Source of the DNA: a virus | IMG/VR virus record: IMGVR_UViG_3300025695_000054 | Span: 1 to 34,474 of that record | DNA: 34,474 nt | Strand: one strand, 5' to 3' | In this document: piece after piece, positions 4,527 through 24,466 of the stretch | Layout: each line of letters starts with the position of its first letter | Position numbering within the stretch: the stretch's first letter is position 1 | Translations under genes and position numbers: made by a program | The notes under the pieces: generated by a model | Told to the model about the DNA's origin: nothing | Seen by the model: the letters and a program-made list of their open reading frames with translations, nothing else | Database searches by the model: none

Positions 4527-7500
4527 GAGATAAATCCCCTAGTCTTACTCTAATCTGCCCATTGTTGTACACAGATACTCCCTTAGTATCCATAATAGTT
4601 CCCGTATAGTCATTAGCTACAACAGGACGAGTACCAGACAGTGATGTACTTCTAAAACTACCTGATCCTATCGCTTCTGCAGCTAGTGTGCCGTTTATGA
4701 CTTGATTACCATTAACCGTAAAAGTACTAGTTGCTGCCCAGACTGTTCCAGAGTACTCGTATATGTGAGTCCATCCAGCAGCAGTGTCGGTGTTATTAAG
4801 TATAAGGGTATCGCCAGTTATTTCACCAGCATAGGCAGCAGGGGCAGCAGTATCCCAGTAACCAGCAATTTTAGCTATAGTGCCTGCGTCTCCAGGCTCT
4901 GCATCACCTAAATCGCTAGCATTATGTGTAAGAGTAGCCGTACCTCTAGGACCTGTAACACTAGTTCCTTTATCACCTGTAAGTTTTACAGGGGTATTCC
5001 AAACAGTGTCACTACTAGTCCAATTACCTGTGCTGTCTATCTGTTTAATAGTTAAAGAGCTTCTCCATGTAAACTCTCCAGATGCTAAAGTTTGAGGGCT
5101 TACATACCATCCATCAGTACTTACTGCATTACCGCTAGTTGAAAAAGACCCGCTTACTCCAGGTACTGTAGGGGTACTTGTTGCATTTTTATATAAAAAT
5201 ATTTCTTTATATGAAGTAGCACTATTGCCATCGATACCGGTTATAGCAACAGGCCCATTCCAGTTGTCATCTATAGCAGACCAGTTGCCGTCATTATCGA
5301 CTTGACGCATTGTTATGTTTATTCTGTATATTTTTTGTGTAGCGGTAGTAGGTGCTATAGAACTTACTGTCCAATCACCAAACGCTATTGCATTACCTGA
5401 AGAAGCAGTAAATCCTTGTAACTTAGTAGGAAATACTGTGGGTACAGCAGCTGCAGTCTGATATAAGAATATTTCTTTATAATTATCTGCAGCAGTACCT
5501 GTACTACCTTTTTCAAAAAATTTAGCTGGAGTGCTCCAATCACTTCCTGTCCAAGTAGTACTTGCTGACCCATTAGACAGTGTTTGTGTATAAACTCTTT
5601 TTGATACCCAAGTAATACTATCCGATGCTACTACAGGATCATCTGACCATGTTCTAGTAACCTCACTAACGACTGTAGTAGGCATAGTCTCAGAAGTACC
5701 GTTGTAAGAACCGCCCGTAGGGACTCCAGGAGCTGCAGTATGCGTAAGGAATACGTAACTTACATAACTACCAACGCCATCGTTGTAGTCTGTACCTTTT
5801 ACAGGAGTAGTACCATTTTCACCTCTAGCTCTAGACCACGCGTAGTCTTCTTTGTTTGTAGGAGCAGTATTACTAGTGCCTACGTATATACCTACATAAA
5901 CCTTATCGCCTGGAACATCATTAAAGCCAGTACCATCTGCGACATCGCTATAACGTATATGAAAATGCTGTTCAGAAGCCTCTAGACTAGCTAAAAACTC
6001 TGCTTCAGTTCCTGTATTGTCTGCAGCTACCCACAATTCGTACGCACTGCTTCCATTAGTCCCGTCTATACGCTGGGCATATACAGATGGAGTAGACCAT
6101 TTATCCTCTAGTGAAACAGATGTTTCTGTGATGTTGCCTGAAGCTAGGGCTGTAATTCTGTATACTTTCTTGTTGTCAGGTACATCGCTAGGAAAGCTAG
6201 TACTCCATGAAGTATGATTTTCTGTTATAGTGTTAGTAGAAAAGTTATATGTAACTTCCGTAGTAGGTACAGCAGGTGCAGAGTCGACAGCAGCAGAATA
6301 AAGAACTACTTCTCTAACTATATCTGCTTCTATTACTCTTTTATCGGAATACTCTACAGTACTTCCGTTATTAGTAGTTTTCTTTTTGATAGACCAAAGC
6401 TTGCCGCCACCTTCAGGCACTACAACGCTATTTACATCGGTGTACCAATTACCATCAGCGCCGCCAGGATCTTGAGGAACATCATCTTTTCTGATGAATA
6501 AAAAGTCAGTAAAGTCGCCTGTGATGCCTTGAATACCTTTAGCACCTACAAACGCTACTTTTACTTCGTTAATACTTCCACCATCTCCTGTGGAAGACCA
6601 CAACGCTATAGTGTTAGTACCAGTAACTAGGTTGTCTGCACCAAACTCATACCATCTGACTTGATTGTTATTTCCTGATAATGAGCCTAGGACTTCTCCG
6701 TTTAGAGCTACTTGAAGACCGCCTTCTGCATCAGTAGCATTAACTCTAAGGAAAGCGTTCCCTGCAAAAGCAGAGTCAAAAGTAAAAGTATGTGCACCGC
6801 CTATACCAGTAGACGTAGGCCATGACACGCTTCCTGCCCATTCAAATAATAAGGCACTTAAACCATCTTTAGCAGTAATCTGTACAGGTTCCGCCCATGA
6901 ATACGTACCAGTACCGTTGGTTTGCTTGCCTAAGGATTGCCAAAGAGTATTATTAATGGTTGAAGGTATATCATCAACCCACCCTGTGTGAGCATCGTCA
7001 GTAGGAGCACTAGGTTTAGTTAGATTATCTTTATACACATATTTATAAACATCTGCATCAATACCGTCTTGTCTAAATGCGTATACAGCAGGCTCAGACC
7101 AACTAATATCAACACTGGTTTGTGTATTATTACCTGTGACTAAAGCAGTGCTTACATATATTTTGTGGTTATTAGTAGTAATACCAGGAACAAACTTGTT
7201 CCAGTCATCACTGTCAATGGTTAAAGTATCAGTACTAAGGTTGTATGTACTAGTTGTTGGAGCCGTTACTGCACCAGTAGTAGGATCACTGTATATAGTT
7301 AGCTCTCTAATCATAGGAGCTTCAATGATACGTTTATCAGTATACGTAGCTATTACTTCTCCAGCGTTTGTGACTTTTTTAATAGACCACAAGTCACCTT
7401 CACCAGTAGCATCAACAGCGTTTGTTTCCCAATCTTCATTTGCAGGAGGATCGGTAGGAACGCCGACAGATCTGATAAACAGGAAATCAGTAGTTCCACC

Positions 7501-19756: not shown

Positions 19757-20263
19757 TTAGTTTGCTAGTGGATTATCTAGTGCTCTTTGTAGCTTTTCTG
19801 TTACTCGTTGCTCTAGTTCTTTTAGCTCTCTATCATTACTATCTCGCAGCCTCTGTAACTGGCTGTCATAATTTGCTTGTAGCTGGTTACGCTTATTTTC
19901 AAAACGTTCGTTTGCTTTATCAATCATCTTACGTACATCTTCTTCTGTCTCGCGTACCATATCTTCAACTCTATCTGCTTGTTTCTCGATAGAAATTATA
20001 TCATCCCGTAGACCAGACTTGATGTCTCGTGTGTATTCTATTGCTTCATCTAGTTTGGTTATCACTAGAGTATTCTGTGCTTTGATTTCATCCACATCAA
20101 TATTCTGGACTATCTCCTTCATGTCCATGTAGTCAGCGTAGAATTCAAACGCACCCCATGATGCACCGCCTAGGGTAGAAAGGGCTGTAAGAAAAGCAAA
20201 CGCTTTCCCACCAGTAAAGGACATTCCGCCAAACTCAATAGTAGTTTTCTCTTCTTCAGCCAT
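19757..20263 (-). CDS. Membrane-anchored coiled-coil protein
   Basis: This 168-aa protein has an N-terminal cytoplasmic-type stretch, one hydrophobic segment at residues about 19-43 (GKAFAFLTALSTLGGASWGA), and then a long charged helix. The helix shows strong heptad character from residue 80 to the end (KQADRVEDMVRETEEDVRKM; SQLQRLRDSNDRELKELEQR). It resembles i-spanin-like topology but the spanin pair is already present elsewhere, so it is more likely another envelope factor. It belongs to the run of envelope genes and ends four bases before the -35 box of the next promoter. Function unknown. Confidence 0.65.
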   Translation of the reverse strand: MAEEEKTTIEFGGMSFTGGKAFAFLTALSTLGGASWGAFEFYADYMDMKEIVQNIDVDEIKAQNTLVITKLDEAIEYTRDIKSGLRDDIISIEKQADRVEDMVRETEEDVRKMIDKANERFENKRNQLQANYDSQLQRLRDSNDRELKELEQRVTEKLQRALDNPLAN

Positions 20264-20271
20264 AGTATTTC

Positions 20272-20610
20272 CTATTTAGTTCTGCCTTTTAAAGCGTCTG
20301 CACCAAAAAACGCAGATACTAATACAGCAATAGAAGCAAAATACGTAGGAGCAATATCTGCAATAAGCTCTGCGGCTTTGTCTAGGCCTAGTAAAGATGT
20401 AATAGCTATACCGATTGGGTAAACTAGTAACCCTATTAAAGAGAACCATGCCATTTTACGAATAGCATCTCTTTGTGCATCATTATCCTCAAGTTCTTTA
20501 CGTTTAAACTCTAAATGCATATCCATTTCTTCTTTAGAAACGTGACCATCACCATTAACATCAGCGCCGTGTACTGCAGCAGAATCAATAGTTAGTTTGT
20601 TATCTTCCAT
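20272..20610 (-). CDS. EF-hand two-TM protein, holin candidate
   Basis: This 112-aa protein has a complete EF-hand calcium loop at residues 17-28 (DVNGDGHVSKEE; Asp1, Asn3, Asp5, Glu12). A charged helix follows (residues 29-52). Two predicted TM helices are at about 53-75 (MAWFSLIGLLVYPIGIAITS) and 86-107, separated by a short loop. A two-TM hairpin is the class II holin topology. The endolysin in this cluster has no signal peptide and therefore needs a holin. The EF-hand is unusual. Whether it binds calcium or gates the protein is not known. Context and topology support the holin idea moderately; a regulatory membrane protein is an alternative. Confidence 0.65.
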   Translation of the reverse strand: MEDNKLTIDSAAVHGADVNGDGHVSKEEMDMHLEFKRKELEDNDAQRDAIRKMAWFSLIGLLVYPIGIAITSLLGLDKAAELIADIAPTYFASIAVLVSAFFGADALKGRTK

Positions 20611-20618
20611 TATTACCT

Positions 20619-21026
20619 CTAGTTTACAAAGTTGTTTTGTGAGTTCATACGCTTAAGCGCATCTAGTTCTTGCTGTAGTTTTAGTACTTCAAGTCGTTTT
20701 ATACGAAGTTCTAACTGGTACAAAGAGTTACAGTTAATTCGTTCTTTAGGCTTGTCCAGGGGGATAATAATCCTAGCGTAAACACCCACGTCTTTTGCAC
20801 TACCTATGTCAGAGTTGCTTCCTAGTACAGAAGCGTTATTTATTATACCAGTAACCCCAAATTCTAACTGTGTAGCACCCCCAATAGCATTTTTACAGTC
20901 TAGGTTTCCTGCTCTAATACTATCTTGTCCGTACGTGCTAGGGCTGGACGGTAGTGCAAGATTTAATGAACTAGAGTCTGCCATTGCTGATCCACAAACA
21001 AATAAAAATAGTATTAGTTTTTTCAT
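20619..21026 (-). CDS. Secreted 135-aa protein with paired cysteines
   Basis: The signal peptide is MKKLILFLFVCGSAMA, with cleavage likely before DSSSLNLA. The mature part has SIRAGNLDCKNAIGGATQLE, then FGVTGIINNASVLGSN and VGVYARIIIPLDKPKERINC. It ends in a Leu-rich helix (LYQLELRIKRLEVLKLQQEL). Exactly two cysteines remain after cleavage, consistent with a disulfide. A beta-barrel-like or oligomeric periplasmic protein is possible. I recall similar proteins in marine phages but no function. It is the last of five exported proteins and starts 2 bp after the previous gene. Confidence 0.7.
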   Translation of the reverse strand: MKKLILFLFVCGSAMADSSSLNLALPSSPSTYGQDSIRAGNLDCKNAIGGATQLEFGVTGIINNASVLGSNSDIGSAKDVGVYARIIIPLDKPKERINCNSLYQLELRIKRLEVLKLQQELDALKRMNSQNNFVN

Positions 21027-21027
21027 G

Positions 21028-21414
21028 CTATTTAGCCTTAGAACAAATACGAGAAGATACTGCAGTCAGTCTCTTAACGCTTTTTCTTAGTTTAGATTTA
21101 GAGCATATGTAAACAACTTTGTTGACTGTATCGGCCTTAAAGTACACATCTATGTTTACTTTAGTTAGATAATCTATCTTTACTATCTTATACAAAGAAG
21201 TAAAAGGTACAGAATTAAATTCTGCATCAAAAACACCTATTTCGTAATACTGTACATCTTCCCTTCTGTTATACACAGTCACCTTAGTCTTATAGATAGT
21301 ATCTATATGAGAAGGCTTTGCTTTAAAATAAGTAGGGGTCATCTCATGGGCCAAAGAGTTTGTAAAAAACCCTAAGCCCATAATAAAAATAATACCAGTT
21401 ATTAGCCTAGACAT
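21028..21414 (-). CDS. Secreted 128-aa protein, beta-rich
   Basis: The signal peptide is MSRLITGIIFIMGLGFFTNS, followed by LAHEMTPTYFKAKPSHIDT. The mature part reads like a single beta sandwich: KVTVYNRREDVQYYEIGVFD, NSVPFTSLYKIVKID, TKVNIDVYFKADTVNKV. It ends in VYICSKSKLRKS and a final SRICSKAK. Only two cysteines, both near the C-terminus, suggest one disulfide. The start overlaps the previous stop as TAATG. Family not known to me by name. Similar proteins occur in marine phage genomes, from memory. A periplasmic chaperone-like or adhesive role would fit the fold pattern but is speculative. Confidence 0.7.
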   Translation of the reverse strand: MSRLITGIIFIMGLGFFTNSLAHEMTPTYFKAKPSHIDTIYKTKVTVYNRREDVQYYEIGVFDAEFNSVPFTSLYKIVKIDYLTKVNIDVYFKADTVNKVVYICSKSKLRKSVKRLTAVSSRICSKAK

Positions 21415-21917
21415 TACTTAGCAATACATTCTGCTAAAACTAAAGCAGTATAATCCCCACCTGGGAATGCTTTATCCCCACCTAGGGTTACTTTAGAAGA
21501 TGTCTCAAACCAAGTAGATCCAGTAGCTAGTAAGTCGTAACGGTCTAGCATCCCTAGTTCCAGTTTACTTGACTCATACTGCCCCATACCTGTAGCATCT
21601 GATACCGTTTTTACAGTAGTATTGCCTTGCCATGTAAGCACATCGTCAATAATAGGACTAGTAGAAAACTCTTGAGGTGCAGTAATTTCTGCGTAGTAAG
21701 AATCTGCTAATGACACATCGTAACGTATAACCACAGGATCTCCACCATCAGAAGCATCAGTAGATAACGTATAGGCGTTTGGATTGCCATATGTACCTGC
21801 TGTGTCTGTTTGAATAATACAACGAGACTCAACAAAACCATGAATAGGTGCTGTTTCCCCTAAAACATTCATACTAGCTATAATACCTAGTGCTGTAAAA
21901 CCTAACTTTTTAAACAT
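21414..21917 (-). CDS. Secreted 167-aa protein, possible pilin-like beta sandwich
   Basis: The signal peptide is MFKKLGFTALGIIASMNVLG with likely cleavage before ETAPIHGFVES. The mature chain starts HGFVESRCIIQTDT and ends GDYTALVLAECIAK, so its two cysteines are close to each end. This is the layout of a beta-sandwich subunit closed by one disulfide, as in chaperone-usher pilins and spore-coat U-like domains. No donor strand can be recognised by eye, so this is an analogy. AGGAG lies about seven bases upstream of the ATG. It is the middle gene of the exported set. Confidence 0.65.
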   Translation of the reverse strand: MFKKLGFTALGIIASMNVLGETAPIHGFVESRCIIQTDTAGTYGNPNAYTLSTDASDGGDPVVIRYDVSLADSYYAEITAPQEFSTSPIIDDVLTWQGNTTVKTVSDATGMGQYESSKLELGMLDRYDLLATGSTWFETSSKVTLGGDKAFPGGDYTALVLAECIAK

Positions 21918-21934
21918 GTGGTGCTCCTATAGGA

Positions 21935-22843
21935 CTAGTTGCCGTATTGCATACTAATCATTTTTTCGTGTAATACCTGCTGCGCTAAACCGTTTCTAAG
22001 GCCTTTATAACTATCAGGTAGTTGTTTGTCATTAATAGACACTTCTTCTTTATAAACGCCACCAGGTATAGACACACCGTAGTAAGTACCTATACCAGTA
22101 GCAGAATTAACAGACTCTAATACTTGAGATTGTGCAAAAGCGTTAGTAAATAACAGATTTGTACCTACAACAGATAAGGCTTTTTCTAACCGCTCTCTAC
22201 TATCTAGGTCCTCATCTGATTCCCTTCTCTCTTTATCTTCTTTTGTCTCTAGATCATCATCTTCATATACCGTATCATCAGGATTGTACTGGCTATTGTC
22301 TACATCCTCACCCGCATCGTAGACGTCATAACTAACTTGTACAACTTCTGGTACAGGTTGTTTGTATCCTGGACAGTTAGGGTCGTACTGCGGGTTATAG
22401 CAAGGATCTACCTTATAGGTATAAATCACATTAGCATTTTCTACTAACCCGTTTCCGTTTACCTCAATAGATCCTTTACCCCATAACTCTTTAGGCAAGT
22501 TACCTACAGGAACTGCTTTGCTAATCTGTGTGTTGTCTAGAGAGCCCGGTAACCAACTATCAACCTCTCTGAACACATATCCTTGACCTAATGCATTTTC
22601 GTTCTGTACAGCGACGTCTACACGGTCTTCTGTAGCCTTACGAATGTTATAAGAGTAAATAACGTTCTGTACTGTAAGTCCTGGAGGGCTAGGGAATACA
22701 TTTCCCATAGTCCACTGTAAACTACTGTCCGCTACAGCGTTACCTGTAGAGCCATAGTATGGCGTTATAGAATTAGAGTAAGAGTAGCAAGGCAGCAAGA
22801 GCACCAACGCTAATAGCACCTTTTTCTGTTTTACTAAGTTCAT
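21935..22843 (-). CDS. Secreted 302-aa protein with acidic linker
   Basis: The signal peptide is MNLVKQKKVLLALVLLLPCY and cleavage is probable near SYSNS. Mature parts: an N-terminal beta domain (LTVQNVIYSYNIRKATEDRV; GYVFREVDSWLPG), a two-Cys loop DPCYNPQYDPNCPGY, and a very acidic Asp/Glu/Arg linker (DDTVYEDDDLETKEDKERRE). A C-terminal helical region follows (RLEKALSVVGTNLLFTNAFA) with VLHEKMISMQYGN at the end. The first 71 bp overlap the end of the previous gene in another frame, where both frames encode hydrophobic sequence. It is the largest of the exported set. Function unknown; a surface or periplasm-spanning protein is possible. Confidence 0.7.
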   Translation of the reverse strand: MNLVKQKKVLLALVLLLPCYSYSNSITPYYGSTGNAVADSSLQWTMGNVFPSPPGLTVQNVIYSYNIRKATEDRVDVAVQNENALGQGYVFREVDSWLPGSLDNTQISKAVPVGNLPKELWGKGSIEVNGNGLVENANVIYTYKVDPCYNPQYDPNCPGYKQPVPEVVQVSYDVYDAGEDVDNSQYNPDDTVYEDDDLETKEDKERRESDEDLDSRERLEKALSVVGTNLLFTNAFAQSQVLESVNSATGIGTYYGVSIPGGVYKEEVSINDKQLPDSYKGLRNGLAQQVLHEKMISMQYGN

Positions 22844-23327
22844 CAGACTTCTTTAACTCTTCTTTGGTTTGTTCTACGTGAGTTTCCCAAGCTAGTTGTG
22901 CTTCAGGTCCTATCATACCCATGTAAGGACAAGGAGTTCCAGCATGCATCATAGCATCAAAAACTTTTGTATCTTGGCACATTACTGATACTGCAGCTAC
23001 TTTCATGCCCATGTCGTATAACGTCTTGGCGTTTTTAAGCCTCACACAGTTATCTTCTGTAAATGTAGTACCTGCACTAATACCTAGTATTTGTGTCTGT
23101 ACTGCGCCTGCTACACCGATAGTGCACAAGTCACTATTAGAATTGCTACCTATCTGAGGGGCAATAGCAGAGGGAGGTGGCTGCTTGATAGTAGTAGTCA
23201 TCTGCCCCTGCGTAGTAATAGTACTGTCATTCTTAGAATCTGTACGGATAACATCCGTATCTTCTTGTGCTAGTACTGTACTGCTAAACACTGTTAGTAG
23301 AACTAGGGTGGTAATACGTGCCCACAT
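22773..23327 (-). CDS. Secreted 184-aa protein with four cysteines and hydrophobic tail
   Basis: The signal peptide is MWARITTLVLLTVFSSTVLA followed by QEDTDV. The mature chain has a Thr/Gln/Pro-rich linker, then DLCTIGVAGAVQTQILGISA, EDNCVRLKNAKTLYDMGMK, AAVSVMCQDTKVFDAMM and TPCPYMG. After a charged helix it ends in GALAALLLLL, a possible C-terminal membrane tail. Four cysteines fit two disulfides. The NAKTLYDMGMKVAAVSVMCQ motif is familiar from marine phage hypothetical proteins. A strong AAGGAGA site precedes the start. It is the first gene after the endolysin, and it leads the exported set. Confidence 0.7.
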   Translation of the reverse strand: MWARITTLVLLTVFSSTVLAQEDTDVIRTDSKNDSTITTQGQMTTTIKQPPPSAIAPQIGSNSNSDLCTIGVAGAVQTQILGISAGTTFTEDNCVRLKNAKTLYDMGMKVAAVSVMCQDTKVFDAMMHAGTPCPYMGMIGPEAQLAWETHVEQTKEELKKSDELSKTEKGAISVGALAALLLLL

Positions 23328-23342: not shown

Positions 23343-23786
23343 CTAGATATTTTCTAGCCTAGTCATTAATCGTTCCGCACGGTTACCTACTTGACGGTAC
23401 CAGATACTATCTCTGCCTTCTGGAGCTGCTTCTGCGTATTTACCAGCCACTAGTTTAGCATTAAAGTTTTTAAACTTGCTTAAGCGAGGACGTCCAAGAT
23501 TGAAGAGCATGTTGACCAAGATCTCTTGTACTTCTCCAGGAAAAACTTCCCATGCTTCTTTGTATAGCACAGAGCATTCACTGATGGCGGTTTGTAAGTC
23601 TTTTTCAAAGCATTCACGTACTCGCTCTTCACTGACTGGTGTCCCGACTGGTTCTCCGTGCTCAGGATCCGATTCAAGTACCAAATGCCCGACTCCGAAA
23701 GTTGCATATCCAAGATGGTCTTCGTAGATCTCATATACTACACCTTCATCAATCTTTAACTGCTCGTACACTGCTTGTTTGTTCAT
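23343..23786 (-). CDS. Endolysin, T4-lysozyme type (GH24)
   Basis: This 147-aa protein shows the GH24 catalytic pattern: Glu14 in LKIDEGVVYEIY, Asp23 in YEDHLGYATFGVGHL, and Thr29. Further down it has NMLFNLGRPRLSKFKNFN and a C-terminal IWYRQVGNRAERLMTRLENI that matches the T4 lysozyme tail. It cleaves the glycosidic bond between MurNAc and GlcNAc in peptidoglycan. There is no signal peptide, so release needs a holin. It overlaps the o-spanin gene by 38 bp and follows both spanins. In lambda the order is holin, endolysin, spanins, so here the order is reversed. Confidence 0.88.
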   Translation of the reverse strand: MNKQAVYEQLKIDEGVVYEIYEDHLGYATFGVGHLVLESDPEHGEPVGTPVSEERVRECFEKDLQTAISECSVLYKEAWEVFPGEVQEILVNMLFNLGRPRLSKFKNFNAKLVAGKYAEAAPEGRDSIWYRQVGNRAERLMTRLENI

Positions 23787-24141
23787 TGGTTGTTACCTTT
23801 CTGTAGTAAATAACTACTTGTTGTACTTCACGGATATAACGTTTAATTTCTTGCATGTTATATGACATAAGCTCGTAATCAGGAACAGACATAGCAAAAA
23901 ATACTACCTGTCCTTCTTTCTTTTCTAAATCTTTTATAAACGTATCTAGGTTTTTATTAGACACTACATACCAGTGCGGATCTTTTAAATCAATCGCTCT
24001 TGGCATTATTGGTTGTACTATCTTCCTTTCCACCGGCTTTGTTACTATCTGTACCTCCACCGGCTTCTTTGGCATCAAGCTGCAACCCGTCATCAAGAGA
24101 GTCAATAGTACGGCTATCATCTTCAATACTGTCGAAAACAT
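23749..24141 (-). CDS. o-spanin (Rz1-like outer-membrane lipoprotein)
   Basis: This 130-aa protein begins with a lipoprotein signal: MFSTVLKMIAVLLTLLMTGC, where Cys20 would be the lipidated residue after MTG. The next part is Pro/Val/Lys-rich (KKPVEVQIVTKPVERK), then AIDLKDPHWYVVSNKNLDTF, a region FIKDLEKKEGQVVFFAMSVP and the helix YNMQEIKRYIREVQQVV. It lies out of frame inside and beyond the i-spanin gene (152-bp overlap). This is the typical layout of two-component spanins, which fuse the inner and outer membrane. The mature protein is longer than lambda Rz1, so it may have an extra periplasmic domain. Function assigned by topology and position. Confidence 0.75.
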   Translation of the reverse strand: MFSTVLKMIAVLLTLLMTGCSLMPKKPVEVQIVTKPVERKIVQPIMPRAIDLKDPHWYVVSNKNLDTFIKDLEKKEGQVVFFAMSVPDYELMSYNMQEIKRYIREVQQVVIYYRKVTTNEQTSSVRAVKD

Positions 24142-24466
24142 TTTTAGTTCCTTTGTTAGCTCTTGTTTCTATTAAACTAGGCTTTGCAGCAGCTAGTTTA
24201 GTTAAGTTATGACGTTTAAAGATATCTAGGTACCTATTCATGTCTTCTTGTATCTCTTGGTTTCTTACCTGTAACTCGACTAGGCCCTGGGTCTGTAAAT
24301 CAAAGTCGTTCTGCAATGACGTTATAGCGGCTTCTTGTTCAGTAAACTTAAGTCCATACGCCTGATTTAACGCTGTAAGCTCTTTAATTTCCGCTTGGGT
24401 ACTTGTATAATAAAAATAGCCTGCTACACTTCCTGCAAGTATTATCCCAGCTAGTAGTTGGTTCAT
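23990..24466 (-). CDS. i-spanin (Rz-like)
   Basis: This 158-aa protein has a single N-terminal TM (residues about 4-20, LLAGIILAGSVAGYFYY). A coiled-coil periplasmic region follows (TQAEIKELTALNQAYGLKF to DMNRYLDIFKRHNLTKLA). After this comes a segment KPSLIETRANKGTKNVFDSI and EDDSRTIDSL, which recurs in phage i-spanins as I know them. The tail is Gly/Ser/Lys-rich and disordered. It is the first gene of the lysis/envelope operon, directly after the overlapping divergent promoters. It pairs with the o-spanin encoded partly inside it. Confidence 0.75.
   Translation of the reverse strand: MNQLLAGIILAGSVAGYFYYTSTQAEIKELTALNQAYGLKFTEQEAAITSLQNDFDLQTQGLVELQVRNQEIQEDMNRYLDIFKRHNLTKLAAAKPSLIETRANKGTKNVFDSIEDDSRTIDSLDDGLQLDAKEAGGGTDSNKAGGKEDSTTNNAKSD

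Follow-up and report, generated by a model that had tools for sequence, protein, structure and literature searches.

What a run of five adjacent genes for exported proteins does for a lytic phage is the question raised by a 34,474-nucleotide viral stretch (IMG/VR record IMGVR_UViG_3300025695_000054, positions 1 to 34,474), hereafter called the window. The window belongs to an N4-like phage, with a portal protein 82% identical to that of Alteromonas phage AD45-P1 (phrog_1216, E 3e-202). Along the minus strand, genes for an Rz-like spanin, an Rz1-like spanin and a lysozyme are followed by the cassette P184-P302-P167-P128-P135, then by P112, P168, a 108-aa gene and the portal gene. The features concerned are:

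23990..24466, minus strand: Rz-like inner spanin (phrog_739, E 1e-12)
23749..24141, minus strand: Rz1-like outer spanin (phrog_812, E 1.5e-16), a lipoprotein by inspection
23343..23786, minus strand: lysozyme (endolysin; PF00959, E 2e-8), directly upstream of the cassette
22773..23327, minus strand: P184, 184 aa, exported, with a 4-Cys domain (phrog_20531 domain)
21935..22843, minus strand: P302, 302 aa, exported, without known family
21414..21917, minus strand: P167, 167 aa, exported all-beta subunit, weakly pilin-like
21028..21414, minus strand: P128, 128 aa, exported single-domain PapD-like (Ig-fold) chaperone candidate
20619..21026, minus strand: P135, 135 aa, exported, candidate outer-membrane export or anchor part
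20272..20610, minus strand: P112, 112 aa, with an EF-hand-like motif and two transmembrane (TM) segments, holin-like by inspection alone
19757..20263, minus strand: P168, 168 aa, sixth linked gene, with an N-terminal TM segment and a long coiled coil

The cassette is absent from AD45-P1 at the corresponding site, between the portal region and the tail fibre genes, and we therefore consider it an accessory block. A 78-kb contig that encodes an N4-type portal also carries the cassette, with proteins matching those of the window.

The first-pass annotation had described five adjacent exported proteins with even numbers of cysteines after cleavage. Export was evaluated with a heuristic that combines charge, hydrophobic core and a small-residue cleavage site; P184, P302, P167, P128 and P135 all have signal-peptide-like N-termini and were all called exported. 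Among non-redundant homologs, 71–94% per family pass the same heuristic versus 13.8% (67/486) of flanking phage genes, hence a run of five exported genes would not be expected by chance. The mature cysteine counts are indeed 4, 2, 2, 2 and 2, and their positions were scored in alignments of 44–53 diverse homologs per family. Four families are invariant: C68, C94, C117 and C133 of P184 are kept in 53/53 homologs, C33 and C164 of P167 in 49/49, C104 and C124 of P128 in 49/49, and C44 and C99 of P135 in 44/44. In the fifth, C148 and C157 of P302 are kept in 47/49. The signal-region cysteines, which had been set aside as irrelevant, are poorly kept (C19 of P302 in 6/49, C11 of P135 in 3/44), and no conserved lipobox cysteine follows the signal in the alignments of any of the five families. 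In view of this positional conservation the even number of cysteines carries meaning, and we strongly infer disulfide bonds in all five mature proteins.

Relatives of the locus were collected in two ways. A scan with P302 gave 17 viral contigs, and an alignment scan with P184 gave at least 577 IMG/VR stretches, the best 80 of which were kept. The order 184-302-167-128-135 is present in every scanned locus, both the 17 from the P302 scan and the top 80 among the 577 or more from the P184 scan, and is broken solely by contig ends. Homologs thus held to the five-gene order rather than appearing as unrelated single genes, yet P184 alone, and the trio P167-P128-P135 alone, occur elsewhere. Carriers include N4-like and T4-like phages, gp23 being present in 4 of the 16 large contigs; the remaining contigs, tested for portal and gp23, were assigned to neither group. 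The same five genes recur in the same order across many unrelated marine phages.

Pairwise distances among the five families correlate with r 0.60–0.83, pointing to co-divergence; for the P302-P135 pair, the maximum r in 1000 label shuffles was 0.28. Median dN/dS values of 0.09–0.12 indicate that the cassette genes are under purifying selection. A P168-like gene lies downstream in 38 of the 40 loci with enough sequence, and its co-variation with the five families is lower (r 0.34–0.48). The five-gene set first described is real, but the conserved unit extends to P168 as sixth gene, and within it P184 and P302 overlap by 71 bp.

Structures were predicted with AlphaFold2 for two proteins, P128 and P167. 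The P128 model (pLDDT 88.8) is all beta. VIA-align matched it to Caf1M (Z 10.8, rmsd 3.3, 103 residues aligned), SafB (Z 10.5), FimC (10.5), DraB (10.4) and PapD (9.8) over 97–103 residues, always in the chaperone N-terminal domain, and pilus chaperones fill Foldseek ranks 2–9. The predicted fold of P128 resembles that of the N-terminal domain in PapD/Caf1M pilus chaperones. Since a GH2 Ig domain (Z 10.8) and MSP/VAP domains (Z about 9–10) tie with these matches, the fold can be called PapD-like Ig, which falls short of proof of chaperone function. Its single Ig-like domain aligned to residues 1–114/141 of chaperones of about 200 residues; the second chaperone domain is absent, and no Pfam chaperone match was obtained. 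C104 and C124 sit on the last two strands of the model.

The P167 model (pLDDT 90.8) is a beta-sandwich in which the mature N-terminus before C33 is predicted to be coil. Foldseek placed FimF first (E 2e-3) with CfaB, PapG and FimG high, all with E-values of 2e-3 or weaker. In VIA-align, Z did not exceed 7.6, the top rows were other beta-sandwiches, and no chaperone-usher pilin was among the rows listed. P167 may be considered weakly pilin-like on these models. A viral fold library gave weak, mixed matches.

Pfam, NCBIfam, PADLOC and PDB-sequence searches returned no usable family for any of the five proteins. P184 matches phrog_20531 (E 5e-16) and consists of a conserved 4-Cys domain at about residues 50–150 and a short hydrophobic C-terminal tail. 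Pelagiphages, roseophages and the N4-like phage JWAlpha have its domain without the trio, and the trio subunit was absent from all seven such phage genomes searched. Several of these phages also carry a P168-like gene, and in several the P184-domain gene is followed by a gene for an acidic protein and then by a TM/coiled-coil gene. In pelagiphages and a related marine phage, the P184-domain gene is paired with one whose product, by inspection, is CBM/jelly-roll-like at the N-terminus; the middle of this protein is very acidic. The acidic pelagiphage proteins were rejected as P302 homologs (profile match of 28% over 14 columns). In JWAlpha, the P184-domain gene (5464–6378) lies among genes resembling N4 early and middle genes and its product has a long Gly/Asn/Gln-rich N-terminus.

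P302 is conserved in an N-terminal region that closes with YxVDPCxxPQxDPxCPGY and again in a C-terminal segment, with an acidic linker between the two. It gave no Pfam or PHROG match, nor any match in 50,697 phage records or, with the patterns used, in GTDB genomes.

In P135, residues 54–60 and 80–90 alternate between hydrophobic and polar, forming two putative amphipathic beta segments that precede a C-terminal heptad-like helix. From this alternation we infer that P135 may be a membrane or oligomeric hairpin, and it is a candidate outer-membrane export or anchor part. P168 has one N-terminal TM segment and a long coiled coil, and ends in KLQRALDNPLAN. Its C-terminal tail, KLQRALDNPLA(N/D), is strongly conserved: 72 of 84 sequences carry an NPL-type motif close to the C-terminus, and this DNPLA-type tail resembles a docking motif. 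Pelagiphages and roseophages have genes with similar tails near the 184-like gene. In PADLOC, the five cassette proteins were without match and the P168 coiled coil gave weak matches alone. The P112 gene is present in some relatives; its product, in which two TM segments come after an EF-hand-like motif, is possibly a calcium-linked holin-like protein.

Three proteins tie the cassette to other replicons. Without P184 and P302, the trio occurs in about 180 records of Vibrio phages from several lineages, in large phages of Klebsiella and Erwinia (where the order is 128-135-subunit), and in bacteria, on Vibrio plasmids and on a Photobacterium chromosome contig, the one chromosome that the bacterial genome survey reached. 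Related exported trios, annotated as hypothetical, were seen in the Klebsiella jumbo phages FBKp24, Miami and Eowyn and in Erwinia phage SNUABM_56. A V. nigripulchritudo plasmid and Photobacterium share the operon order subunit-like gene, gene for a 264/313-aa exported protein, P128-like gene, P135 gene and gene for an EAL-domain protein. The EAL-domain gene that comes last in this order suggests a link to c-di-GMP, which is usual for surface adhesion. Both operons, in which the trio system has no Pfam match, point to a bacterial surface or biofilm system.

Profiles were compared from independent alignments per group, and a P128 comparison against a set containing family members was discarded as circular. 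P135 is one family across the cassette, Vibrio phages, large enterobacterial phages and bacterial loci (hhalign 97–99%). The cassette P128 profile matches those of Vibrio phages at 92%, cellular loci at 94% and enterobacterial phages at 84%, the Vibrio-phage and enterobacterial-phage profiles matching each other at just 0.3%. For P167, the cassette profile matches that of Vibrio phages at 96.5% and those of the enterobacterial-phage and cellular subunits at 2–3%, while the latter two match each other at 90.5%. Cross-family controls did not exceed 6.1%. Given these results, we take P135 and P128 as the steady parts of the trio; outside Vibrio phages, the subunit slot is set by position and by the N- and C-terminal cysteines.

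Our tentative reading, to which we give a probability of about 0.42, is that the cassette, a phage-borne module of chaperone/pilin-like type that does without an usher, assembles protein on the infected cell's envelope. In the periplasm, P128 would hold the beta-sandwich subunit P167. With its two amphipathic strands and coiled coil, P135 would form oligomers at the outer membrane and serve there as a small exporter or anchor, taking the place of the usher. P302 and P184 might be partner or tip proteins, a role that the 264–313-aa exported protein may fill in the two bacterial operons. P168 could anchor the assembly at the inner membrane and span the periplasm, its DNPLA tail docking on a partner. 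The infected cell would come to bear a short fibre or coat, whose most likely purpose would be to block further adsorption (superinfection) or to alter cell adhesion before lysis; superinfection exclusion by the cassette is possible. We counted in favour of the module the strict gene order, the co-divergence, the dN/dS of about 0.1, the chaperone matches of P128, the weak Foldseek matches of P167, the cellular operons with an EAL gene, the P135 and P128 profile ties and the P168-like gene in 38/40 loci. Counted against it were the single chaperone domain, the MSP/VAP and GH2 ties, the pilin likeness of P167 without VIA-align confirmation, the 2–3% reach of its profile, the absent usher, a P135 role deduced from residue alternation and the P168 correlations of r 0.34–0.48. 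A wider proposal, which we hold to be doubtful, is that the trio represents a new class of chaperone-assisted outer-membrane assembly pathway with the P135 hairpin/coiled coil in place of the usher. It would be used on bacterial replicons and by unrelated phages, some of which would couple P184, P302 and P168 to it and display fibres on infected cells.

The first-pass annotation had offered a structure in the host envelope, an altered surface against superinfection or a part in lysis. For a host-envelope structure built by a co-selected, disulfide-containing exported set, the strict order, the co-divergence, the predicted PapD-like chaperone fold and the cellular homologs of three members speak in favour; a general role in lysis was not supported.

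An unlikely alternative is that the exported set masks a receptor without building a fibre, binding and blocking an outer-membrane receptor as T5 Llp and Cor-type proteins do, in a multi-protein version. Known receptor-blocking proteins also sit near tail-fibre genes, and in the Vibrio phages examined, from several lineages, the trio comes after large genes resembling tail-fibre genes. Against this, the five families have no conserved lipobox, C19 of P302 being kept in 6/49 homologs, and neither a chaperone-like member nor bacterial operons with an EAL gene would be expected for a simple blocker.

The position of the cassette in the window, between Rz/Rz1/lysozyme and a two-TM holin-like gene, raises the possibility of an accessory for envelope or outer-membrane lysis, in which the exported proteins and P168 (i-spanin-like in outline) would form a second envelope-spanning complex aiding progeny release. 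Some trio-less marine phages carry both a P184-family and a P168-like gene, in places near an annotated lysozyme or peptidase gene. This phage, however, already owns Rz and Rz1, and the trio exists on bacterial replicons. The linkage to lysis genes, real here, is rare in relatives: the immediate upstream genes match a spanin family in 4/98 cases and an endolysin family in 4/98, and the 105 downstream genes gave a single holin and few endolysin matches. As the flank scan found so few lysis genes, a general lysis role was dropped, and the accessory complex is quite improbable. That the proteins are virion or tail components passing through the periplasm and joining particles at lysis is very improbable: a location in the late region close to fibre genes, as seen both in the window and in Vibrio phages, would fit, but the signal peptides, the conserved cysteines, a cellular operon whose surroundings lack phage structural genes and the cytoplasmic assembly that is the norm for tailed-phage parts all speak against it.

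The surface-assembly module remains our preferred reading. The same five genes recur in order and one of them resembles half a pilus chaperone, so it appears that viruses supply the cells they infect with a small, previously undescribed kit for surface assembly. In lytic phages, few secreted systems made of several proteins are understood, and the present one is widespread: P184 was found in at least 577 IMG/VR stretches, and all of the best 80 have the cassette as far as their contigs reach. It poses a testable question, why lytic phages remodel the exterior of cells that are soon destroyed, and it may reveal an usher-independent assembly route.

The cassette shares with chaperone-usher pili (PapD/FimC/Caf1M/CsuC) the predicted P128 fold, equal to the chaperone N-terminal domain, a cysteine pair on the last two P128 strands and, in P167, an all-beta exported subunit with a free N-terminal segment. 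It differs in having one chaperone domain instead of two and no Pfam chaperone or pilin match, and in adding the P135 family and P184/P302/P168, without counterpart there. The usher (PF00577) was found in 0/16 viral records and 0/3 plasmids with a positive E. coli control; the viral records may be incomplete, and the host may supply an usher. The genes of the phrog_20531 type in pelagiphages, roseophages and JWAlpha share the 4-Cys domain of P184; unlike the cassette, they come without the trio subunit in the seven genomes searched, and their acidic partner has no P302 profile match. The superinfection-exclusion proteins T5 Llp and Cor-type are exported single lipoproteins or small proteins. 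Like them, the trio in Vibrio phages consists of exported phage proteins near tail-fibre genes, but the cassette genes are selected together, include a chaperone-like member and lack a conserved lipobox. No described match to the cassette was found in the literature. CsgG (PF03783) was detected in 0/17 cassette-carrying viral records, which may be fragments, and in all 4 control genomes, and no cassette protein matched a Csg family. The nearest published precedent is in pelagiphages, which encode curli (type VIII secretion) cassettes; the function of these is debated, the proposals being superinfection defence, sibling capture and lysis timing (PMC7029224, PMC9599517, PMC9004378). The present cassette is a different protein set, but it is likewise a putative multi-gene surface-export set common to unrelated marine phages.
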